Source: a virus. Taken from it: 31,867 nt of DNA. Both the position numbers and the translations under genes were made by a program. Positions 9,814-30,997 of this stretch are shown here, piece after piece. The stretch covers positions 1 through 31,867 of IMG/VR virus record IMGVR_UViG_3300044799_000135. One strand, given 5' to 3'. Under the pieces are notes generated by a model. It was not told the origin of the DNA. It ran no database searches and saw only the letters and a program-made list of their open reading frames with translations. Position 1 is the first letter of the stretch. Each line of letters begins with the position of its first letter.

Positions 9814-11372
9814 GCCTTCGCCTTCAGTGCCTCCACGCCCAACCGGATGCCTTCCAGAACATCGGCGGCGGTAGTCTCTGACCGTGTTCCTTTCACGCGC
9901 TCCCGCGCCTGCTCGAACGTCATCTCGCCTTTCTTGACCGCGGCGTGAATGCCCTCGGATAAATCCACCGCGTGCCAGCGCGTAAGTTTCCCGGCCTTCG
10001 CACTTTTTTCTTCCCAGGTATCCAATTCTACTAGCGCCTTGATTTGTTCGGGGGACAACTCGTTAGTCGGAGTCTCTTGGGTCGGGATGGTTTTCTCAAG
10101 TTGTGGCGGGACGGGTGCGGATTGTTCTGGCGGCGACTGCGCGCCAAACGGGCCGGCTGGTTTCAACTGACTGGGGATTAGATCGTCGCGTTCGTCGCCT
10201 AGCGGTTCGTCTTTATAATACTTCTTGCGGATTTCCTCGATTGTGTGCGTCTTGGAATATTCTGTCGTTTCCAATAGTTCCTGCGCCTTATCTGACCAGC
10301 GGATGTCCTCGAATTCGCCGTAAAGATTTTCGCCGTAGGCAGGTAGAATACTATTCGAAATTTTCTCTGCAATTGCCCCAAGTTCGGGATATACCGCGCG
10401 TTCGCGGAACGTTGCCCGGCCCGCCAGCGCGTTGGCCTCGGTCGCAGACACGTCCAGCATGGAGGATAAACCAGGAGCCAGGACGGTGAAAATTTCCTCC
10501 CGATTCGCTGTCATCTCACCCAGAAATTCCATGTCCTTCTGCGACATAGCGTTTTGCAAAAGTTTGACATCGCCAGACCCCGTGCCGCGCAACATCATAA
10601 AATCTTTCTCGACCGCTGCCTTACGAGTATCGGTTTTAATTTTGTCCCACTGGTCATCATTGATCATTTCCGCGAACAGAATGAACGCGGGTGGACGCCC
10701 GCCGGATTCGTTGTAAACTTTATTTGAATATTTCTGCATCCCGAATGTCGCTTGTGCAGTTAGAGCAAGCGACTCGATTGCAGACAACCCGAGAAAACGC
10801 GAGAACGGGTTGAACGAACGAAAATGCACAACCTCCCAGGGCTCCAACGCGATCTCCATTCCGTTGCCAGGATAGTACAAAAAGTTCTTGACATACATTT
10901 GTTTGTCTGGCAGTGGCTTAATCATGTGCGATGGAATGAGCCATAGTTCATCCGGCTCCGCGTTCTCGTTTGTCCGATTCATCCACCAATACGCGTTACC
11001 GGTAAGTTTCTTCATGGCAACCGTGCCGTAAAGGAATTCGTAACGCGAATCAAGATCGTTGGGTCGGCGTATCCGCAGCTCGAATGGATGGTTCTTGATT
11101 TCCTTCGAGTCTTCTCCCTCCAATTTTTCGACCGAGAACGTCGTCAGTGCTGCTTCGCTGGCGACGTGCATTACGGCGGCCAGAACCCAGGACAATCGGC
11201 GGTACAGATCCGCTTGATTGGCGTATACAGATGGATTTGGTAGATTGTATTGTTCTCTGCCTGCCGTTTCAAGCAACCATTGTGGATATTTCGCTTGTGT
11301 CGTCTTTACTGCTTTTTCGATTTGCTGTTGTAATTCCTTGCGTGTGGCAAGTCCAAAGAATTTATTCAACAT
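9810..11372 (-). CDS. Portal protein
   Basis: A 520-residue protein with AAGGAG seven bases before ATG 11372, starting MLNKFFGLATRKELQQQI. Portal features of the HK97/phi-lambda group are visible: YRRLSWVLAAVMHVASEAAL early on, GNAYWWMNR, PWEVVHFRSFNPFSRFLGLS in the wing and stem, then KMTREEI-like NREEIFTVLAPGLSSML. A proline-, glutamine- and serine-rich linker around residues 405-445 leads to a C-terminal helical extension. The portal ring is the DNA gateway for packaging and ejection. The homing endonuclease gene directly upstream overlaps its ribosome binding site region by 11 bases, so the two are translationally linked. Confidence 0.88.
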   Translation of the reverse strand: MLNKFFGLATRKELQQQIEKAVKTTQAKYPQWLLETAGREQYNLPNPSVYANQADLYRRLSWVLAAVMHVASEAALTTFSVEKLEGEDSKEIKNHPFELRIRRPNDLDSRYEFLYGTVAMKKLTGNAYWWMNRTNENAEPDELWLIPSHMIKPLPDKQMYVKNFLYYPGNGMEIALEPWEVVHFRSFNPFSRFLGLSAIESLALTAQATFGMQKYSNKVYNESGGRPPAFILFAEMINDDQWDKIKTDTRKAAVEKDFMMLRGTGSGDVKLLQNAMSQKDMEFLGEMTANREEIFTVLAPGLSSMLDVSATEANALAGRATFRERAVYPELGAIAEKISNSILPAYGENLYGEFEDIRWSDKAQELLETTEYSKTHTIEEIRKKYYKDEPLGDERDDLIPSQLKPAGPFGAQSPPEQSAPVPPQLEKTIPTQETPTNELSPEQIKALVELDTWEEKSAKAGKLTRWHAVDLSEGIHAAVKKGEMTFEQARERVKGTRSETTAADVLEGIRLGVEALKAKA

Positions 11373-11937
11373 TTGATTGCTCCTTGCGTTTCCGCCAAGA
11401 TTCCTTAATAGCAATACTTAATCTTTTGCAAGTTTCGGGACTAACAGGCATACCTTTATTAGCAATGCTAATTTTTTGTTTTGATTCTTCTGAAAAGTGA
11501 TACCCCAGAAGGTTCTTGTTTCCCTTTGATGCCTCGGCTATTTTTCTGCGCGCCTCTTCTGTATGATGATACCCCAAAAGATTTTTATTCCCTTTAGCTG
11601 CCATACTAAGTTTGGCACGATATTCTTCAGATCTTATATATCCTGTCGATCTACCAGCAAAAGGTAATAGATTATATTCGGGATGTAGAATATCCATATA
11701 GTATTGTTCTAGTTTTATCAAATCCTCTTTTGCGCATGCCCTCATAATGTCCAAAACAAAAGCATCTTCTCCATATTTAATAAATGCGTTTTGTAAATAG
11801 TTATTACAATGGCGATTATGGCGGAGGAGAAATAAGTGCATATAATATCGATATTCGATGTTCACACTTGAACCAATATAAAATTTACCGTTTGCAGTAT
11901 TTTTAATTCTGTAAATTCCACAAATGCCGTTTCGCAT
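11362..11937 (-). CDS. Free-standing GIY-YIG homing endonuclease with NUMOD3 repeats
   Basis: A 191-residue protein; ATG 11937 has AAGGA seven bases before it. The GIY-YIG nuclease covers residues 1-95: GIY at 7-9, YIG at 20-22, Arg 30, a glutamate in LEQYYMD (Glu 77) and Asn 89. Residues about 103-175 hold three NUMOD3-type DNA-binding modules, two of them nearly identical (AKGNKNLLGYHHTEEA and SKGNKNLLGYHFSEES). This is the seg/I-TevI-type layout. It sits between the large terminase and portal genes and is AT-richer than both, the mark of a mobile homing endonuclease. It would cut uninfected-type alleles lacking the insertion and spread by repair. Both flanking genes are intact, so it is intergenic, not intron-borne. 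Confidence 0.9.
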   Translation of the reverse strand: MRNGICGIYRIKNTANGKFYIGSSVNIEYRYYMHLFLLRHNRHCNNYLQNAFIKYGEDAFVLDIMRACAKEDLIKLEQYYMDILHPEYNLLPFAGRSTGYIRSEEYRAKLSMAAKGNKNLLGYHHTEEARRKIAEASKGNKNLLGYHFSEESKQKISIANKGMPVSPETCKRLSIAIKESWRKRKEQSNVE

Positions 11938-11950
11938 TTTGCATTCCTTA

Positions 11951-13237
11951 TTATGCCCAGCCGACCAAAGTCTCTGGGCTGTAACGTTTAGCCAATTCTG
12001 TGTCGGCCCAGACTTTTGCATCAAGCCGATTTGGGCTAATTTTATCACCTTGTACCCATTGGCACAACTCGCCTTCGAGCAGTGGAAACTCACCTACCAT
12101 GTGATCTTCTCCGCGCTCGGCCAGCGCGGAAATCGGCTCGGCACGTACGGCTTTGCCGCGCGTAGCATTGACCAATTTTATGTTTACGCTTGGGTCGGTG
12201 TCCTTGATAACCTTCTCGACCATCTCGCCGCCATAGTTCTGTTCGGCAGCCATGACATCAGCCTTGAGCAGATGATACAAGGTACAAGCGGCGTTTGCCC
12301 AGGTATTCGGACTGCCCTGGACACTTGAATCAGCCAGCGTGTAATGGTGACCATCCACATCACCGCCGCGCGCTATCCCGCAGCCAACAATCCCGCACTC
12401 CGCGCCGCTGCTGGACCCGGATGGGTCCACCCCGATAACGATGCGCGCCAGTTCGGGAGCCTGGCGCACGCGATTATCTTCGATGCCATATAGTGTCCGG
12501 CCTGCCACAACCCGCGTCTGCCTATGCCATAACGCGCCAGGAGCCTCGTCAACATCCTCGGCCATGATCTCCTGGCGGATTGCCAAATGGGTCATGTCCT
12601 TTGTGATTTCTTCCAGTGCAACCCCGCTCAGGTACGGGTTATCATGACTGGTAAACGTCAAGGCCAGATAGCGCGGATTGCCTGCCTTCTGTTCGGCCTC
12701 GAATTTCGCGTACATCTTGGCAGCGTGGCGCGGGTCGCGCGCTTTCGACGTACTCCGGCTGTGCAGACTGGGCGGGGTGTAAATAAATATCGCGTCGCCG
12801 TCATTGTCGAGCAACATCGGCGCGCCGACCACGTCCCACGTATCCTCATCCATAAGCTGCCATTCGTCCAGGTTCAATAAGTCCGCGTAGTCACCCCGCA
12901 GAGTATCGGGACTCCAGCACGTTTTCCCACGTATGCGCTGTTCTGTCCCAGGAAGTTCTATCAGATGTTCCGTTTCATTTTTGCGGAACACTCCCGCTTT
13001 TATTGGCTCAGCCAGCGCACGCGTTACCACTGTCCACCATCTGTCCAACTGGTCGGCGGTTGGCACGCCATATAAGACGCGTTTCCCGTCCAAGAATTTT
13101 TGTATGTCATAGATTGCCACGCCCTCAGTCTTGCCGCCGCGCCGCCCAGCACGGATGATTTTCCGCTTGGCTGGATTCTCGATAAAAATCCGCTGCTTTT
13201 CGTGGGGCGTGGGTAAGAAAACCCTGTAATCAGGCAT
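11951..13237 (-). CDS. terL: Terminase large subunit
   Basis: A 428-residue protein with both terminase domains. The ATPase has a Walker A-type AGRRGGKTEG at residues 30-39, a Walker B LLNLDEW at 120-126 and a coupling motif FIYTPP at 151-156. The nuclease (RNase H fold) shows VIGVDPSG with Asp 271, AAEQNYGG with Glu 332 and RLDAKVWADTEL with Asp 406. The protein packages DNA into the prohead through the portal and cuts concatemers. Its start overlaps the upstream gene by 8 bases with no strong ribosome binding site, implying coupling. It is complete, which shows that the neighbouring homing endonuclease has not interrupted it. Confidence 0.95.
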   Translation of the reverse strand: MPDYRVFLPTPHEKQRIFIENPAKRKIIRAGRRGGKTEGVAIYDIQKFLDGKRVLYGVPTADQLDRWWTVVTRALAEPIKAGVFRKNETEHLIELPGTEQRIRGKTCWSPDTLRGDYADLLNLDEWQLMDEDTWDVVGAPMLLDNDGDAIFIYTPPSLHSRSTSKARDPRHAAKMYAKFEAEQKAGNPRYLALTFTSHDNPYLSGVALEEITKDMTHLAIRQEIMAEDVDEAPGALWHRQTRVVAGRTLYGIEDNRVRQAPELARIVIGVDPSGSSSGAECGIVGCGIARGGDVDGHHYTLADSSVQGSPNTWANAACTLYHLLKADVMAAEQNYGGEMVEKVIKDTDPSVNIKLVNATRGKAVRAEPISALAERGEDHMVGEFPLLEGELCQWVQGDKISPNRLDAKVWADTELAKRYSPETLVGWA

Positions 13238-13956: not shown

Positions 13957-14044
13957 AAACTTCTTTTGGCGGAATCGTACCGCCCTTGCCACCCTTTTCA
14001 ATCGCCTGTGCTACGCCTGTTTTAGGTTCGGGTTCGTCAGTCAT
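13937..14044 (-). CDS. Micro-gene, 35 aa, coupled to IbrB-like gene
   Basis: ATG 14044 overlaps the TGA of the IbrB-like gene as ATGA, with AAAGG just before it. The product starts MTDEPEPKTGVAQAIEKGG. It is too short for family recognition; it is included because coupling, spacing and overlap with the next gene form one continuous series. Confidence 0.45.
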   Translation of the reverse strand: MTDEPEPKTGVAQAIEKGGKGGTIPPKEVYEKIIL

Positions 14045-14697
14045 TTTACCTTTTTTGTTTCATAATCGTGTTTGATTTTTATCTGTTTTCGCGTCATCCA
14101 AGCCCGATTATATTCCCGATCCGCGAACAATTTCGAGAATCCAGTAATGTGTTTTAGACGGAGCAATTCTTCGGGTTCCATCCCCAATTCATTACAGATT
14201 TCCGTATCATCCCATCCGTTGTCCAACATAATAAACACTAGATTTGACATTCCCTGGATAGAATGTTTTCCTCGCGCTCGATTATGCCGAATAGTGGAGG
14301 CCATGCAATTATTAATGGATTTATGGATAACCGTGCATGGTAATAATCCATGATTCCGTTCATAAATATCTTTGTTGACTTTCATCACGTAATAACGATG
14401 AAAACCGTCTACAATAATATATTTCTGTTTTTCGGGGTCATAAATCGTTACGATTGGTTGAGTAAACCCATCATGATCTATAGATTTATAGAGCAAACTC
14501 ATTTCGATCTGCGCGACACTATTTGGGTTGTAATCATTTGCTTCTATTTGGTCAATCGGTATCCAGCGCACAAAATCAACGGGCTGGGCAGTGTTTAAAT
14601 GCAACTCATGAAGAATAGCGCGGATTTCTTCGATGGCCGCCAATTTGTCAGAGGCAGAGTTGACATATTGTTGCACTTGCTGAAATAGATTATCCAT
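14041..14697 (-). CDS. ParB-like protein, IbrB type
   Basis: A 218-residue protein. Residues about 43-150 form a ParB/sulfiredoxin-like domain: VRWIPIDQIEANDYNPN, the core IVDGFHR at 95-101, and TIRHNRARGKH at 135-145. A helical C-terminus with DTEICNELGMEPEELLRL could be a helix-turn-helix. In E. coli IbrB is found next to the PAPS-reductase-like IbrA, and the same pair recurs in many phages. Here the two genes overlap by 8 bases. ParB-family domains can bind or cleave CTP-type nucleotides and can act on DNA, but this subgroup's biochemistry is unsettled. The surrounding operon suggests a role in DNA modification, host takeover or transcription. Confidence 0.75.
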   Translation of the reverse strand: MDNLFQQVQQYVNSASDKLAAIEEIRAILHELHLNTAQPVDFVRWIPIDQIEANDYNPNSVAQIEMSLLYKSIDHDGFTQPIVTIYDPEKQKYIIVDGFHRYYVMKVNKDIYERNHGLLPCTVIHKSINNCMASTIRHNRARGKHSIQGMSNLVFIMLDNGWDDTEICNELGMEPEELLRLKHITGFSKLFADREYNRAWMTRKQIKIKHDYETKKVK

Positions 14698-15799
14698 TCA
14701 TCGCCGCTTTTATTCTGTTTTTGTCGTAAGGAACATGACAGGTGGCAAAATTTCCTAATTGTGTCCCATGATAATCATTTGTCAATATACAATTTATTTC
14801 AGTTACAACAAGATCGTTCTGCGCGGGTTCCGTGTATTTCTGGTCATATTTCTCAAAATCGTGTTTTAGTTTTTCTTTCTGTTTTTTATCAGTTATTAAA
14901 TTCTCCAATAAATAATCTCTATACTCCCACCAATTTCCAAACATGAAAGGAAGATTTGAGGGACATCGAATACCAACGTCTTGCAGAATCCCCGCCGTGT
15001 TTATACCGGAAATTCTATTACAAACTTTATTCCATGTCTCGAATTCAATCTCTTGAAGTCGGTATAGATTAACTACTGCTGTTTCGTGGTGTAGATTTGA
15101 GACCCTCATGTTCTTAATCGGAACTCCACATTGGTACATGTAATCATAAATCGGGCAGTAGCTCCAAGAATTATCGTGTATTGCTTTCCAAACATCACCC
15201 AACCCCCAATCATAAATGGGATAAAAAGCGAAATGTTGCTGCGTTTTAGAATCAACGCTACCCCATGTAGCATCTCCATATGTAGCAGCCCCAGTAAGTC
15301 CTATCCAGCGACTTGGACTTTCATCACATCTAACCCCGCCAAGATGACAGGCTTTCTGATGTGAAAATTCAACCTCCATGAATTTTCCAAACAACGTTTT
15401 AAATCTATCAGTGCCGTATTTATTCACGTGAATACTATCGGGTTCCTTCTCGCGTATCCATTCTTTTCCCTCTTCCCAACAATAAAGCCAAGGCTCTGTG
15501 GTGCTGGTCGCGTTGAATATTTTTATGGGAATTTGCAGCCAGTATGGTTTTATGCGTGAATCTGCCATCACTGCTCGAACATAGTCAATAACCGCCTGCC
15601 ATTCTGCCTCCTGATCAATGAACATAACCCCCAATGGTAGACGGTTTTTCTCCTCCGCTACTTTAAGCGCAAGATTCATAACAACTGTGCTATCCTTGCC
15701 GCCAGAAATATTCACAATAACATTTGGGAATTCATCGAATAACCAACGTATTCTGTCGAGTGCGGCATCGAAAACATTCTGTTTCAAGTAAAATTTCAT
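14690..15799 (-). CDS. PAPS-reductase-like ATP pyrophosphatase, IbrA type
   Basis: A 369-residue protein; ATG 15799 is coupled (ATGA) to the methyltransferase stop and preceded by AAGGA. The PP-loop ISGGKDSTVV is at residues 31-40. Downstream are FIDQEAEW and KEWIREKEPDS, and the second half, with FYPIYDWGLGDVWKAI, matches the IbrA/DUF3440 arrangement. PP-loop enzymes adenylate a carbonyl or sulfate; relatives include PAPS reductase, DndC (DNA phosphorothioation) and TtcA. There is no sulfate-assimilation gene nearby, so an assimilatory role is unlikely. The codon use is AT-richer than in the capsid genes. Substrate unknown. Confidence 0.85.
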   Translation of the reverse strand: MKFYLKQNVFDAALDRIRWLFDEFPNVIVNISGGKDSTVVMNLALKVAEEKNRLPLGVMFIDQEAEWQAVIDYVRAVMADSRIKPYWLQIPIKIFNATSTTEPWLYCWEEGKEWIREKEPDSIHVNKYGTDRFKTLFGKFMEVEFSHQKACHLGGVRCDESPSRWIGLTGAATYGDATWGSVDSKTQQHFAFYPIYDWGLGDVWKAIHDNSWSYCPIYDYMYQCGVPIKNMRVSNLHHETAVVNLYRLQEIEFETWNKVCNRISGINTAGILQDVGIRCPSNLPFMFGNWWEYRDYLLENLITDKKQKEKLKHDFEKYDQKYTEPAQNDLVVTEINCILTNDYHGTQLGNFATCHVPYDKNRIKAAMNG

Positions 15800-16599
15800 T
15801 GTTTTCCTTGTACGATCCAAAAATTGCCGAACTCCGAGAGTTTCCCTGGAAGCAACAAATGATTTCCTTTATGGTGTGAGATTTCAATCCCCGATTTGAT
15901 ATAGGTAATCGGGAAATAATCGTCTTTGTAAAACATAACAAACCAGCGACCACCCTTCTTCACCATGCATGGGATTCGAGCTATTGCCTCAGGATGGATA
16001 TGATTTGCAGAACCAAAAAGAGATATGACCAAATCGACTTTCGGGCCAGCATATTCCTCAAAAAGCGTTTGAATGGTTTGAGCTTTAGGATATTTATTTT
16101 CCAAACATTTAAGCATAATCCTGGATGGATCAATTCCCACATAATCAACTAGTTGAATATAATCAAGTAAAAGACCTGTTCCACAACCAATATCGAGAAC
16201 ACTTTCAGCATGATATTGGATTAAATCAACTATGTTCTGATTGTCCTGTAAACTTTCAGGATCAGAGAACATGCCATCATAATTTTCGGCAATGTCGTCA
16301 TAACTGGAAAAAGGCGAGATATATTTCCGGTTTATCAGAATCGTGGCCGGGATTGGCGCGCCCATCGTCCAATATTTCATTCCGTTGACATTGGCTGTCG
16401 TAAATTTTCTGCCATGCCAAAATTCATTACGCCCTATTTTTCGTATCGCTTTCACCGCTCTATCGAAAAAAATATCATCATTCCATTCCCGGCGCAAAGT
16501 GTACCAATGTGGGTTTTGCGGCATGGTTTTAGCAAAAATCCAGCGTTTTGATAAAAATGCCTCTCCCAATAAATCCAAAGCATCAAAATCGAAAATCAT
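15796..16599 (-). CDS. Class I SAM-dependent methyltransferase
   Basis: A 267-residue protein coupled to both neighbours by ATGA overlaps. Residues about 30-92 form a distinct N-terminal region (HWYTLRREW, WTMGAPIPATILINR). The Rossmann methyltransferase follows: motif I VLDIGCGTG at 134-142, an acidic motif near VGIDPSR at 154-160, and a motif IV-like VDLVISLFGSANH at 188-200. There is no DPPY/NPPY signature, so it is not a classical DNA N6/N4 methylase; a small-molecule, nucleotide, base or protein substrate remains possible. The gene precedes IbrA and IbrB in one operon, which may mean that the three act in series. Confidence 0.8.
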   Translation of the reverse strand: MIFDFDALDLLGEAFLSKRWIFAKTMPQNPHWYTLRREWNDDIFFDRAVKAIRKIGRNEFWHGRKFTTANVNGMKYWTMGAPIPATILINRKYISPFSSYDDIAENYDGMFSDPESLQDNQNIVDLIQYHAESVLDIGCGTGLLLDYIQLVDYVGIDPSRIMLKCLENKYPKAQTIQTLFEEYAGPKVDLVISLFGSANHIHPEAIARIPCMVKKGGRWFVMFYKDDYFPITYIKSGIEISHHKGNHLLLPGKLSEFGNFWIVQGKQ

Positions 16600-24753: not shown

Positions 24754-24916
24754 AAAGGCCGTCCGCGAACTGGTCAGATACGCGAGATTGAAGGGACTGG
24801 ACGAAATATCCGAAGTCCAGGATTACCTGGCCGAGAAGGATTCGCATTTCAGCCGCCGCAAGGTGGAAAGAATTATCGCGGAAGCGATGCAGGAGAAGAA
24901 ACATGGCACTCTATAA
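24746..24916 (+). CDS. Small helical protein, 56 aa
   Basis: ATG 24746 behind GAGGAGAAAG and overlapping the previous stop. Starts MNKKAVRELVRYARLKGLDE; helical with SRRKVERIIAEAMQEKK. Overlaps the next gene by 14 bases. Possibly a small DNA- or RNA-associated helical protein. Confidence 0.5.
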   Translation: MNKKAVRELVRYARLKGLDEISEVQDYLAEKDSHFSRRKVERIIAEAMQEKKHGTL

Positions 24917-25724
24917 ATCACTTACGAACGAAAATAAAGGACCGTATTCTAACTTTGATTACACTCCATATTTGCCGAAAAAAAGCTGGCACGATTGCCC
25001 TGCGTGTCACAATGACGGGAAAGATTGTGAGAAATGCGATGGCGAAGGCGGTTATACAACATATAGACCCGACAAATGGTTGCCAAAAATCAAGCAACTC
25101 GAATTATGCGTATCAGGTTGGCACGGCTCGAAGGACGGTCAAATTCTGGAATGGCTTAACGCTAATATCTACAAAATTGAGACAAGAGGGAAAATTCTGA
25201 GTGATAATAATAAATTCACCACTGAACAGATCCGGCTCGTGCGAAAATGCGAGGGTTGGAATAAACGCACCGCGCGTTTATTCGCTTGTGATTGCGCAGA
25301 ACATGTCCTCCCCATTTTCAAGACGAAATATCCTAGTGATGAACGATCGCGCATTGCAATCGAAACAGCACGCAGATTCGCAAATGGCAAAGCCACCTCT
25401 GAAGAATTAGCTGCGGCCTGGGCTGCGGCCTGGGATGCGACCAGGGCTACGGCCAGGGCTGCGGCCAGTACTGCGGCCTGGGATGCGGCCAGTACTGCGG
25501 CCAATACTGCAGCCAGGGCTGCGGCCAGTACTGCGGCCAGTACTGCGACCTGGGCTGCGGTCTGGGCTGCGGCCAGGGCTGCGGCCTGGGATGCGACCAG
25601 GGCTACGGCCAGGGCTGCGGCCAGTACTACGGCCAGGGCTGCGGCCTGGGATGCGGAAAAAAAATGGCAGACGAGAAAGTTAATGCGCCTTCTGAAGGTC
25701 AATAAACAGGAGAAGAAACCATGA
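24903..25724 (+). CDS. Imm-5-like protein with alanine-rich tetrapeptide repeat
   Basis: A 273-residue protein. Residues 30-48 carry a DnaJ-type zinc knuckle ([17 protein letters not shown]). Residues about 105-165 have [16 protein letters not shown] and [20 protein letters not shown], the pattern of the Imm-5-like helical family. From about residue 170 to 250 it is a chain of four-residue units such as [12 protein letters not shown] and AAAS, encoded by a 12-nt tandem repeat (25411-25656). Zinc-finger plus repetitive helical scaffold suggests a binding platform; in immunity or anti-defence it would act by binding a toxin or host protein. Length of the repeat may vary between relatives. Confidence 0.5.
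25411..25656 (+). repeat. 12-nt tandem repeat coding Ala-rich tetrapeptides
   Basis: Around 20 imperfect units such as CTGCGGCCAGGG and TGCGGCCAGTAC. The block ending [13 protein letters not shown] occurs twice. The register is in frame, so unit gain or loss keeps the reading frame. Confidence 0.85.
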
Positions 25725-25922: not shown

Positions 25923-26540
25923 ATGAAAGAAGAACTAGAGTTCCCCCTATCCCCCACCGGCGCGTGGATCATCACGCGCGTGTTCTCGGCAACCGGTATC
26001 TCAATTGACGTGAAAGCCAGCGGCACGAACGCGGTCGCCGCCATTGACGACCTATATACTGGTATTGCCCACGGAATCGAGAAATACCATTGGCAATTGG
26101 AGGTCCCGAAAGCCCCGACTGCGCCGCCGCCCGCCAAAGACGCGGCCGCCAAGATCGCCGCCGAAGAAGGCAATCAGGAACTTGCCACAGAACTAGAGGT
26201 GCAGGGTCTTGAAGTTCCGCCGCCGCCGAAGGACAAAGAGTGGCAAATTACCGACTGCGTGTTCCTCGAAATTCTACCCCAACCCGATGAACGAGTCACG
26301 TTGAAGTTTTACGGCAATGACCGTAAGCAGCCCCATAACGACTATCCGTCCGTCTCTGTTAATAAATGGGCGTGGGAGCAGGCGCAGGGACTATTGAAAC
26401 ACGTCACTACAGCCGACGTGAGTAAGGCCGCCGAGTTCAGTTTGCCCTGTAGAGTCTATTGGACACTCGGAAAGTCATATACAAAACCAGATGGTTCTAC
26501 CGGTCAATATAAGGATGTAGCACATGTTCGACCTTTATAA
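25923..26540 (+). CDS. Unknown early protein, 205 aa, possible OB-fold
   Basis: ATG 25923 behind GAAAGGAGAAAA; starts MKEELEFPLSPTGAWIITRV. The N-terminal half has a small alpha/beta segment (residues 1-65) and a Pro/Ala-rich linker (KAPTAPPPAKDAAAKIAA). The C-terminal half, ending YKDVAHVRPL, has strand content like a nucleic-acid-binding OB-fold (RVTLKFYG, RVYWTLGKSY). A single-strand DNA-binding or recombination role is possible but only suggested. Confidence 0.5.
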   Translation: MKEELEFPLSPTGAWIITRVFSATGISIDVKASGTNAVAAIDDLYTGIAHGIEKYHWQLEVPKAPTAPPPAKDAAAKIAAEEGNQELATELEVQGLEVPPPPKDKEWQITDCVFLEILPQPDERVTLKFYGNDRKQPHNDYPSVSVNKWAWEQAQGLLKHVTTADVSKAAEFSLPCRVYWTLGKSYTKPDGSTGQYKDVAHVRPL

Positions 26541-26545
26541 CAAAC

Positions 26546-26556
26546 TGTGGTATACT
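26546..26556 (+). promoter_or_regulatory. Extended -10 promoter of the structured RNA
   Basis: TGTGGTATACT: TG-G-TATACT with -10 at 26551-26556; +1 near 26563. The TGTGGTATACT string is identical to that at the HNH promoter 23464-23474, and so shares the palindrome half-site. Confidence 0.65.
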
Positions 26557-26561
26557 GATGT

Positions 26562-26669
26562 TTATCACAGTCATGTCGGGCGTTTTGTTTCCTAGACAAA
26601 CTGCCGCTAATCTGAGACACCCGAAATGGCTGTGATAAGACACTAGGAAATCAGGTTGGCGGCATTTTG
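26562..26669 (+). ncRNA. Candidate structured leader or ncRNA with interleaved helices
   Basis: The predicted +1 lies at the start of a long stem: TTATCACAG (26562-26570) with CTGTGATAA (26630-26638), extended by U.G, CAT/ATG and CGGG/CCCG to 17 of 19 positions, closing at 26620. Its loop holds TTTCCTAG (26588-26595), complementary to CTAGGAAA (26643-26650), and TGCCGCTAATCTGA (26602-26615), which pairs for 14 positions (2 G.U) with 26652-26665. A TTTT follows. The outer stem and the 14-bp helix are interleaved, giving a pseudoknot or two exclusive states. It ends 17 bases before the start codon of the gene at 26682, so it may control that gene. Confidence 0.55.
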
Positions 26670-26681
26670 CTGGAGACAACC

Positions 26682-26921
26682 ATGAGAAGGCGATGCCAGA
26701 AATGCGAAGCCAAATGCGAAGAATACAAGAAACAACAAGCTATTTACAACGCCAGAGAATATGCCAAGAAAAGACCAACAACACTTGCTTATAGGTCTAA
26801 ATATCTCTCTGAACATAAAAAGGAAATCGCTCTCCACGCCACCCTGCGCTATGCAGAGAAAAAGAAAAATAGAAAGACCATTGACTATCGCACCGACGTG
26901 TCTCACATGCGGCCACTCTAG
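26682..26921 (+). CDS. Basic Cys-rich small protein, 79 aa
   Basis: ATG 26682 behind TGGAGACAACC; starts MRRRCQKCEAKCEEYKKQQA. CQKCEAKC near the start, then a long basic helix (NAREYAKKRPTTLAYRSKY). Resembles a small zinc-linked nucleic-acid-binding protein. The start is placed just after the structured RNA. Function unknown. Confidence 0.55.
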   Translation: MRRRCQKCEAKCEEYKKQQAIYNAREYAKKRPTTLAYRSKYLSEHKKEIALHATLRYAEKKKNRKTIDYRTDVSHMRPL

Positions 26922-29013: not shown

Positions 29014-29041
29014 TTGACAACTGGCACAAAAAGAGTATAAT
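29014..29041 (+). promoter_or_regulatory. Consensus sigma70-type promoter
   Basis: TTGACA (29014-29019) and TATAAT (29036-29041) with a 16-base spacer: the only consensus pair of this quality I saw. +1 near 29048, ahead of non-coding sequence. Confidence 0.85.
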
Positions 29042-29047
29042 AGAAAT

Positions 29048-29209
29048 TGTCAGCGTGGCAACCTGGCGAAAGGACAAACTTGTGAGACTAAAGGCGAAAA
29101 GAACTTCTGTATTTTGTACCGGCGGTAAGGCCCTCTCTTACCGCACGCCTTGCGGTGAAATGCCTTTGGTCTCACCCTTGCCGCCAGTACAAAGCACAGG
29201 AGTTTTTTT
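29048..29209 (+). ncRNA. Candidate pseudoknotted ncRNA with intrinsic terminator
   Basis: From +1 (about 29048) no gene is present. Bases 29097-29130 pair with 29176-29209: 34 positions, only two mismatches and a few G.U, ending in a T7 tract, so transcription should end here. The loop holds an inner hairpin (ACCGCA 29140-29145 with TGCGGT 29151-29156) and the segment 29162-29174, which pairs with 29083-29095 (GTGAGACTAAAGGC region; 13 to 14 bp, one G.U). That helix is interleaved with the long stem: either a true pseudoknot or a two-state switch. Not recognisable as 6S, tmRNA, RNase P or a CRISPR RNA by eye. Confidence 0.65.
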
Positions 29210-29216
29210 ATTCGAC

Positions 29217-29256
29217 AATGCGTCTGCCTCGCTCGAGGCATGGCGCATTTTGATTT
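29217..29256 (+). terminator. Second intrinsic terminator
   Basis: AATGCG (29217-29222) pairs with CGCATT (29244-29249), and TGCCTC (29225-29230) with GAGGCA (29235-29240), separated by a small internal loop; TTTTGATTT follows. It lies just after the first RNA's terminator. Confidence 0.7.
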
Positions 29257-29260
29257 AACA

Positions 29261-29640
29261 ACGCCTATCGGGCCGCGCTCCGGTAGACCACAAGATTGAT
29301 GCAGCGCGGTGCATGGGCCAATAAGTCTGGTCAACTGTAGACAATCATCAATCCCCCGCTCGACTGTGGACGTAAGTCCAGGGGACTGTTCGCCAAATCT
29401 TGGTAGCGTCGAGAACAGCGAGTTTGAGGCGAACGGTGTGAGGCCAGCACGAACAAAAGTTGCCTGGGGTGACGCACCTCCAAACCGCGTCCTTATACTC
29501 AGTCTGTTCCCAACCCGAAGCCCGTTTTCCTTCCCGCGCCGCGTATCCAGGTACGGTAGGGGGAACGTGCCAACAACTTAACTCAGTAAAGGTTAGTGAC
29601 AGACTCCGGTAGAAGAAGCCCGCGCATTCCGAGAGGATAA
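29261..29640 (+). ncRNA. Candidate structured RNA or long leader, 380 nt
   Basis: No convincing gene on either strand. Helices visible: CTATCGG 29265-29271 / 29280-29286, with its loop pairing 29273-29279 / 29303-29309 (an H-type pseudoknot); GATTGATG 29294-29301 / 29346-29353 (8 bp); 29385-29394 / 29428-29437 (10 positions, one G.U); a GUAA tetraloop hairpin 29367-29380; GGGGTG 29466-29471 / 29475-29480; AGTCTGT 29501-29507 / 29599-29605; 29550-29555 / 29566-29571. Ends at the ribosome binding site of the gene at 29644. Short helices can occur by chance, but several in one stretch and the pseudoknot are suggestive. Confidence 0.45.
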
Positions 29641-29643
29641 AAA

Positions 29644-29901
29644 ATGAAAGCAATACAAGAGGAATTACTACCTCGAATAATCGAGAAGATAGACATAATT
29701 ACACCCTCGCCCGAAGAGATTGAGGTTGTCAGAACACATGGAGGCTGGACACGAAAGACTTTACTTAAATGGGGTGTACCCTGGCTTCCCGAAGAAATAT
29801 CTCCTCCAAAAGGATGGAGGCGCGAACTTATAAGGCGCTGGGGCAGAGAGACCTATCCACTAGACCCGAAAGACCGCATTGATGTAGGCGGTTTATTCTG
29901 A
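29644..29901 (+). CDS. Unknown small protein, 85 aa
   Basis: Behind GAGAGGATAAAAA; starts MKAIQEELLPRIIEKIDIIT. Contains THGGWTRKTLLKWGVPWLP and WRRELIRRWG, a basic Trp-rich segment like a small DNA-binding or recombination-associated protein. First gene after the long non-coding stretch. No family recognised. Confidence 0.55.
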   Translation: MKAIQEELLPRIIEKIDIITPSPEEIEVVRTHGGWTRKTLLKWGVPWLPEEISPPKGWRRELIRRWGRETYPLDPKDRIDVGGLF

Positions 29902-29913
29902 AAGCGAGGAGCG

Positions 29914-30429
29914 ATGGATAAACGAGAAGCAATCCAGAACGTGTTAAAGAAGTACCAGATAGTTGACCATGAAGCATTGCTTGACGAACTCATTGATCTT
30001 TTCGATAGGTTGCGCGTCGCCCCCAACCTCCCCGCGCCAACAGGCGACACGGTAAGCGACTGGGCACGAATATCCGCCCTGCACCAGGAACGGGAACAGG
30101 CGGAGCAGTCCATGCTCGATCGGCTCGAGGAGGCCCTCGGCATCACGCCGAATGGAAGACCAGAGTGGGATACCATTGCCCGTTTCCTGATTGAGAAGGA
30201 GAGCGAACGGTGCGCCGAAACGATTGAGACGTTCGCGGCGAATTGTCGACTCGACCCGTTCTCGACACCAAAGACACATCAGATTGCCAAAGATCCGATG
30301 CAGATCAAGACGAACTGGATACACGTCATGGCTATGAAAACTGAGCCGAGCAAAGGCAAGGGGAACAACGAGCAATTTTTTGACCAACTCAAGAAAAAGA
30401 AACTGGAGTATGCAGATGGCAACAATTGA
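29914..30429 (+). CDS. Unknown early protein, 171 aa
   Basis: Behind GCGAGGAGCG; starts MDKREAIQNVLKKYQIVDHE. N-terminal helix followed by DELIDLFDRLRVAPNLPAP, a middle helix (QEREQAEQSMLDRLEEAL) and a charged C-terminus. It overlaps the next gene (helicase loader candidate) by 14 bases, so it is likely in the same replication module. Confidence 0.5.
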   Translation: MDKREAIQNVLKKYQIVDHEALLDELIDLFDRLRVAPNLPAPTGDTVSDWARISALHQEREQAEQSMLDRLEEALGITPNGRPEWDTIARFLIEKESERCAETIETFAANCRLDPFSTPKTHQIAKDPMQIKTNWIHVMAMKTEPSKGKGNNEQFFDQLKKKKLEYADGNN

Positions 30430-30997
30430 CGATATTCTAAACGTGATCGCTTACATGAAACTGGCGTTCCCGAATTACAATCCCAACATTACCGACAAAC
30501 CGTGTACTGCCGATGTCTTAATGGACTTGTTGGGTGATCTTACCGCCGAAACACTCCAGGCCGCCGTCCGCTCTTGTTGCGCCGAGTCGGGGCGCGCCTT
30601 TGCGCCATCCGCCGGGGAGATCCGCGGCGCGGTCTCAAGTCTGCGTTCTAAAATTGACGGCGTTCCGAGCGCGGGTGAGGCATGGGGCGAGATCATCGGT
30701 TCATTTGAGCGGATGCCGGGCGGGAACATGGCAGGCGGAGGACACACGCCCATCCTGGACCATCCGCTAGTACGGAAGGCCGTGCATTGCATAGGTGGAT
30801 ATGTTGCCATTGGTGCGGATTTCTTCGAGAACCAGATGGCGAATCGTGCCCATTTCCTGCGGATATATGCAGACCTATTGGATACCTGGAAAGACGATGC
30901 CGCCGAGTTGCCGGCGATCACGGAGTATGTCCAGAAACAAATTGGCGAGGCAACAAAAATGCTGACTGATAAGTTATCGGTGAAAGAAAGGAGATAA
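30416..30997 (+). CDS. Replicative helicase loader-like protein (G39P-like)
   Basis: A 193-residue protein; ATG 30416 with GGAG seven bases upstream, inside the end of the previous gene. The N-terminal LNVIAYMKLAFPNYNPN, then MDLLGDLTAETLQAAVRSC and RAFAPSAGEIRGAVSSL follow the pattern of phage G39P/helicase-loader proteins that bind the DnaB-type helicase. The middle has EAWGEIIGSFERMPGG and PLVRKAVHCIGGY. No helicase or primase is inside this window, so its partner may lie just to the right or be the host DnaB. Confidence 0.6.
   Translation: MATIDDILNVIAYMKLAFPNYNPNITDKPCTADVLMDLLGDLTAETLQAAVRSCCAESGRAFAPSAGEIRGAVSSLRSKIDGVPSAGEAWGEIIGSFERMPGGNMAGGGHTPILDHPLVRKAVHCIGGYVAIGADFFENQMANRAHFLRIYADLLDTWKDDAAELPAITEYVQKQIGEATKMLTDKLSVKERR

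Follow-up and report, generated by a model that had tools for sequence, protein, structure and literature searches.

A 31,867-base phage record in IMG/VR (the whole of it hereafter called the window) carries an RNA element that we read, with somewhat better than even confidence, as the 5' leader of a replication operon, attenuating transcription through a topological gate. In related phages, the genes directly after the element are mostly ones that initiate replication; hence, it probably acts as an RNA brake on replication and not as a free-standing small RNA. The element and the genes downstream of it comprise the following features:

29014–29041, plus strand: sigma-70 promoter TTGACA-16-TATAAT (12/12 match)
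29048–29210, plus strand: predicted terminated leader RNA of ~160 nt, class I element (fold z −4.23, covariance models R1/R2, seven other phages)
29079–29093, plus strand: weak small hairpin H2 (CUU/AAG), with the crossing-helix 5' arm in its loop (sequence, folds)
29082–29096, plus strand: 5' arm of crossing helix A/B (GTGAGACTAAAGGC, plus G at 29096; 0/1000 shuffles, pairing in 8/8)
29097–29130, plus strand: 5' arm of the terminator stem, with the conserved U.G / A x C internal motif (shuffles, covariation)
29122–29144, plus strand: putative alternative hairpin GCGGTAAG/CTTACCGC (from the sequence)
29161–29175, plus strand: 3' arm of crossing helix A/B, abutting the 5' end of the terminator 3' arm (shuffles, nascent-RNA folds)
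29176–29209, plus strand: 3' arm of the terminator stem and U-run (AAAGCACAGGAGTTTTTTT; fold, shuffles)
29914–30429, plus strand: downstream gene, homologue of the gene beside the element of the relative G002 (33% over 72 aa, E 1.7e-10)
30416–30997, plus strand: helicase loader (G39P/P-like; PF11417 above cut-off, phrog_9804)

The promoter has its −35 box at 29014–29019 and its −10 box at 29036–29041, separated by a spacer of 16 nt, and the predicted transcription start is at ~29048. The RNA from 29048 to 29210 folded with −63 kcal/mol, and none of 200 shuffles was as good. Its terminator stem (29097–29130/29176–29209) has 34 positions per arm with 31 pairs and ends in a U-run at 29203–29209. 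A second helix crosses this stem: the 5' arm lies just 5' of the terminator 5' arm, and the 3' arm lies just 5' of the terminator 3' arm. This crossing helix comprises 14 bp including one G.U pair (29082–29095/29162–29175), and a further G.U extends it to 15 bp (29082–29096/29161–29175). No shuffle out of 1000 of the flanking and loop segments equalled it. An earlier sequence-only reading of this DNA had described a perfect promoter, a 34-position terminator stem and an interleaved helix of 13 to 14 bp; all three were recovered, the helix now at 14–15 bp.

The layout of promoter, terminator and crossing helix in the window exceeds chance. A scan for the combination (promoter of at least 10/12, long-loop terminator and crossing helix) gave no strict match in 60 dinucleotide shuffles of the window (1.9 Mb) and none in 0.44 Mb of bacterial DNA. 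The hairpin H2 was stronger in most relatives, for example ACCG...CGGU (L105, L158) or CCACC...GGUGG (L087). The hairpin at 29122–29144 would cover part of the terminator 5' arm until the 3' arm is made, and its conservation was absent among the relatives. In the alignment, the window element has a longer apical part. A divergent promoter-like site (TTGCCA-16-TATACT, 10/12, 29034–29061, minus strand) overlaps the −10 region of the element and points upstream.

Searching Rfam 15 at gathering thresholds (including c4 antisense RNA, isrK, riboswitches and type III antitoxins, as far as present) gave no matches in the window, in keeping with the earlier impression that the RNA belongs to no common class. 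There were also none in the loci of ten relatives, and a lax search gave one chance match only (E 1.6). Such an element was not found described in the literature, most subscription journals being outside the coverage of the search.

A blastn search of phages and plasmids gave nothing, and protein-based scans with single window proteins yielded no relatives. With the terminase as the query, 57 IMG/VR loci were obtained. The closest record, G002, matched the terminator end over 17 bases, and the surrounding sequence repeats the layout of the window element, with TTGACA...TATAAA and a long terminator stem crossed by the helices GTGGCAGGT/ACTTGCCAC and AACAGGC/GCCTGTT. L105 (identical to L128) and L087 were found by a 3'-arm pattern and L158 by a two-arm pattern. 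L292, L293 and L294 were found upstream of homologues of the helicase loader, with no criterion on the element sequence. Class I thus has eight members from IMG/VR phages: the window, G002, L105, L087, L158, L292, L293 and L294. The covariance model R2, built without the window, recovered the window with E 0.0017 in 0.47 Mb. The locus L223 (Oscillospiraceae; R1 E 0.0021) was rejected as a member because the crossing helix was absent.

The sequence-only reading had made its interpretation depend on conservation of the paired segments in relatives; both helices were indeed conserved and covaried. For the terminator stem, changes on both sides were found at 9 of 25 pairs in five members and at 15 of 24 pairs in six members with the window left out. 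None of 500 shuffles matched the observed covariation score, and in slid controls the pairing dropped from 94–95% to 46–58%. Helices A and B were fully paired in all eight class I members despite their differing sequences, with changes on both sides at 5 of 6 positions in helix A and 6 of 6 in helix B (0 of 2000 partner shuffles as good). As the A/B arms had been chosen by eye for complementarity, shuffles per member are the stronger tests. In these, a crossing helix as good was obtained in 2 of 1000 shuffles for L292, 9 for G002, 14 for L158, 39 for L105 and 88 for L087 (each of 1000), and the test was not significant for L293 and L294.

Seven of the eight class I members have kept, inside the stem, a U.G pair next to a mismatch (A x C or U x C), and the U.G pair was present in 5/5 and 6/6 sequences of two covariation alignments. 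The AAGCA stem motif was absent from L292. Across those seven members, the U.G/[A,U]xC stem motif was the only conserved part, and an aptamer-like core, as in a riboswitch, was not seen. Loop sequences varied among the class I members, and the A/B sequences varied freely while their pairing was kept. Sequence conservation in the 3' arm partly reflects how members were chosen, because L087 and L105 were picked by a 3'-arm pattern; the pairing evidence is unaffected by this.

The surroundings of the elements were compared for class I together with a second class (class II, see below). A promoter of at least 10/12 was found in 13 of the 15 elements, compared with 8 of 2000 random 65-nt phage segments. 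Twelve of the 15 elements terminate 0–45 nt 5' of a Shine-Dalgarno sequence and start codon; L105 is included by virtue of a short ORF at a distance of 25 nt, and its 310-aa gene begins after 99 nt. The next gene in L087 takes as its Shine-Dalgarno sequence the AGGAG within the terminator 3' arm (AGGAG-TTTTTTT-ATG). The distance to the next gene is 436 nt in the window and 323 nt in G002. No promoter above 9/12 was found in the window gap after the terminator, and no clear second promoter was found between element and gene in either phage. The arrangement is that of an attenuator leader: promoter, leader, intrinsic terminator and a downstream gene without a promoter of its own.

The neighbour in L105 is a replication initiator (phrog_1032), that in L158 is a DnaD-like loader (phrog_186), and those in L293 and L294 are O-like initiators. 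G002 and L128 have large DnaB-helicase-like ORFs further downstream (by eye). The first gene in L087 and L292 is an HNH or homing-type nuclease, not a replication gene. In the window, the next ORF (29644–29901) had no PHROG or Pfam match. Homologues of the window helicase loader adjoin elements in L087, L158, L289–L294 and L297. For the downstream genes, no relatives in cultured phages were found for three proteins, and one protein matched a RepA-like initiator. The 432 nt at 29212–29643 contain no evident gene, are moderately structured (z −1.97, 2 of 100 shuffles) and include an inverted repeat with 15-nt arms (29501–29515/29591–29605). The 323-nt gap of G002 resembles this gap, with no detectable sequence similarity. 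The gap is possibly an origin or a second RNA.

The sequence-only reading had taken the region for a stand-alone small RNA gene. The terminated ~160-nt transcript would then be the product, acting in trans on a protein or on RNA of the host or phage, and its place before replication genes would merely time its synthesis. The perfect promoter and the strong terminator suit such a gene, and the long non-coding gaps that follow make a separate small RNA possible in the window and G002. However, in most relatives the gene begins at most 45 nt past the U-run, in L087 with the Shine-Dalgarno sequence inside the terminator arm, and the element directly precedes genes, mostly replication genes. Moreover, loop sequences are not conserved, as a shared target would demand, and a 12-nt perfect complement is absent elsewhere in the window. 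We therefore consider a stand-alone small RNA unlikely. A discrete RNA of ~160 nt would still arise whenever the terminator acts.

For the attenuator leader, the following course of events is proposed. RNA polymerase would initiate at the perfect promoter, and helix A/B would form ahead of the terminator 3' arm, looping out the terminator 5' arm. With connectors of no more than 0–4 nt, the terminator stem could not close completely as long as A/B holds, and transcription would read through into the replication genes. If A/B formed late or was opened, the stem would close, transcription would stop in the U-run and only the ~160-nt RNA would be made. Candidates for the signal are a protein of the phage, a host factor, a ligand and transcription speed. 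The choice may be regulated in vivo, with the onset of replication as the controlled step.

A/B and the terminator share no nucleotides. An A-form helix of ~31 bp measures roughly 85 Angstrom, and A-form geometry suggests that the crossing helix and the terminator cannot both form fully. This changes the picture of one pseudoknotted RNA given by the sequence-only reading. The crossing topology stands, but two alternative leader states are more likely than a single static fold; coexistence of the interleaved helix with the complete terminator is contradicted by connecting loops of ~0 nt against a stem of ~31 bp.

When nascent RNAs, cut off after the crossing-helix 3' arm, were folded, helix A or S1 (the corresponding helix of class II), or B in L158, had P ≥ 0.8 in 13 of the 15 elements. 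In L293 and L294, A and B are short (6–7 bp) and were not dominant in the nascent RNA; in L158, B alone was dominant. The crossing helix of the window had P = 1.00 in the nascent RNA and 0.00 in the full-length RNA. In all eight full-length class I RNAs it had P 0.00, with the terminator in its place, and three full-length class II RNAs retained S1 (P 0.58–0.94). As folding programs exclude pseudoknots, this replacement of the crossing helix is partly built in; the folds show the order and relative stability of the helices, not their exclusion.

The window contains a second element, at 26562 in the sequence-only reading, where a similar topology had been noted. Its helices do cross in this way:

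26528–26668, plus strand: class II element (promoter TCGACC-17-TATACT; 1/1000 shuffles; covariation)
26561–26580/26620–26639, plus strand: helix S1 (sequence)
26588–26595/26643–26650, plus strand: helix P3 (sequence)
26602–26615/26651–26664, plus strand: terminator, crossed by S1 (sequence)

All three helices cross one another, and the element is the leader of a 79-aa ORF with its ATG at 26682. Class II comprises seven elements: that of the window, two in L289 and one each in L290, L291, L292 (at 5067) and L297. They share a plan in which a 9- to 20-bp helix S1, which begins at most a few bases from the predicted start of the transcript, is crossed by a 12- to 14-bp terminator; P3 is common to four of them. 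Shuffles gave covariation as good in 0 of 2000 cases for S1 and 4 of 2000 for the terminator, and P3 is less certain (76 of 2000). The second class II element of L289's phage (L289:10370–10405) lies 11 nt 5' of a 271-aa ORF, which points to several such leaders per phage. Classes I and II co-occur in the phages of the window and of L292.

The crossing helix could also be a passive device that only makes the terminator weaker, at a fixed read-through, or shields the mRNA 5' end from decay, with no regulated switch. This would fit the free variation of the A/B and loop sequences under constant pairing, and a conserved ligand-like pocket is not evident. Against it, a weaker terminator would be obtainable more simply, and two sequence-unrelated classes retain the elaborate crossing design within the same phages. 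We regard a passive device as quite unlikely.

Control by an antisense RNA of the pT181/pIP501 type, in which a counter-transcript pairs with the leader and causes termination, has a precedent in the leader attenuation of plasmid replication genes. In c4 or P4-type immunity and pT181-type rep attenuation, too, leader termination controls replication genes, and an antisense or immunity RNA is required. In contrast, antisense promoters of at least 10/12, sought across the element and in the 200 nt that follow it, were found in 2 of 15 elements (26 of 400 random segments), with none in the window, and there was no c4 match. This mode of control is improbable here.

That the element is a DNA-level site (an origin, packaging or recombination palindrome) is hardly credible: long inverted repeats do lie close to the replication genes, but promoter and U-run are at fixed places, and the invariant U.G of the stem would not pair in DNA or in a transcript of the other strand, which, together with the covariance-model score (68.7 bits for the sense strand, 37.7 for the antisense), argues for a function in the RNA of this strand. 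A type III toxin-antitoxin RNA, in which tandem RNA repeats precede a ToxN-like gene, was rejected since the element is single and non-repetitive and the next ORF has no matching family.

Several known leader RNAs resemble the proposed attenuator in part. The crcB fluoride and pfl/ZTP riboswitches combine a co-transcriptional pseudoknot, a competing intrinsic terminator and a downstream gene (PMC11077080, PMC10085676, PMC2864571). The likeness is in the leader RNA with a crossing pairing predicted during transcription, the terminator and the gene downstream. In those riboswitches, however, strand displacement decides whether shared nucleotides go to the aptamer or to the terminator, whereas the crossing helix and the terminator here share none; moreover, a conserved ligand pocket and an Rfam match are absent here, and the genes are phage replication genes. 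By binding RNA polymerase, the put RNA of HK022 keeps it from pausing and terminating in early transcription (PMC9378689). This RNA is likewise a phage early leader RNA governing downstream termination without a phage protein, but the element described here contains its own terminator and crossing helix. IsrK of the prophage Gifsy-1 serves antQ and targets, in trans, the longer isoform of itself (PMC4825925). There, too, transcripts from one phage promoter either terminate early as a short RNA or read through to give an mRNA, with alternative structures; the present element differs in its replication genes and in having no Rfam match.

An attenuator leader is a known kind of device, and the family looks new, matching no curated RNA family. 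Known transcriptional riboswitches switch by strand displacement; in this family, by contrast, the helices cross without overlapping. Because it is mainly pairing that has been conserved, the family would escape a search by sequence alone.

In bacterial genomes, the R2 search of Chloroflexota gave perfect hairpins and repeats only. Homologues of the helicase loader were found in 2 of 400 Chloroflexota genomes, in 13 of 299 genomes from the phylum of a Bacillota MAG and in none of 297 genomes from the phylum of a Geobacteraceae MAG. None of the bacterial helicase-loader loci examined had the element. The phages are an environmental group. Elsewhere in the window, an ORF on the minus strand (11362–12093) overlaps the terminase end, resembles a GIY-YIG type homing endonuclease by eye and has a homologue in L158's phage (40% over 183 aa). 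A phosphoadenosine phosphosulfate reductase-like gene adjoins a ParB-like gene at 14044–15820 on the minus strand (phrog_2302, phrog_2159), and a 273-aa ORF at 24903–25721 has a repetitive C-terminal half rich in Ala, Arg, Trp and Thr.

Termination control by a helix that crosses the terminator, without competition for bases, would be unusual. Tentatively, and with less confidence than we have in the attenuator itself, both classes may form one phage-specific family of topological attenuators. In each, a non-overlapping antiterminator helix would be threaded through the terminator, so that either could close only once the other had opened, with multiple elements per genome timing the entry into replication and possibly one common factor acting in trans. 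That the same uncultured phages have two classes of unrelated sequence, placed before replication initiators, suggests a general timing device.
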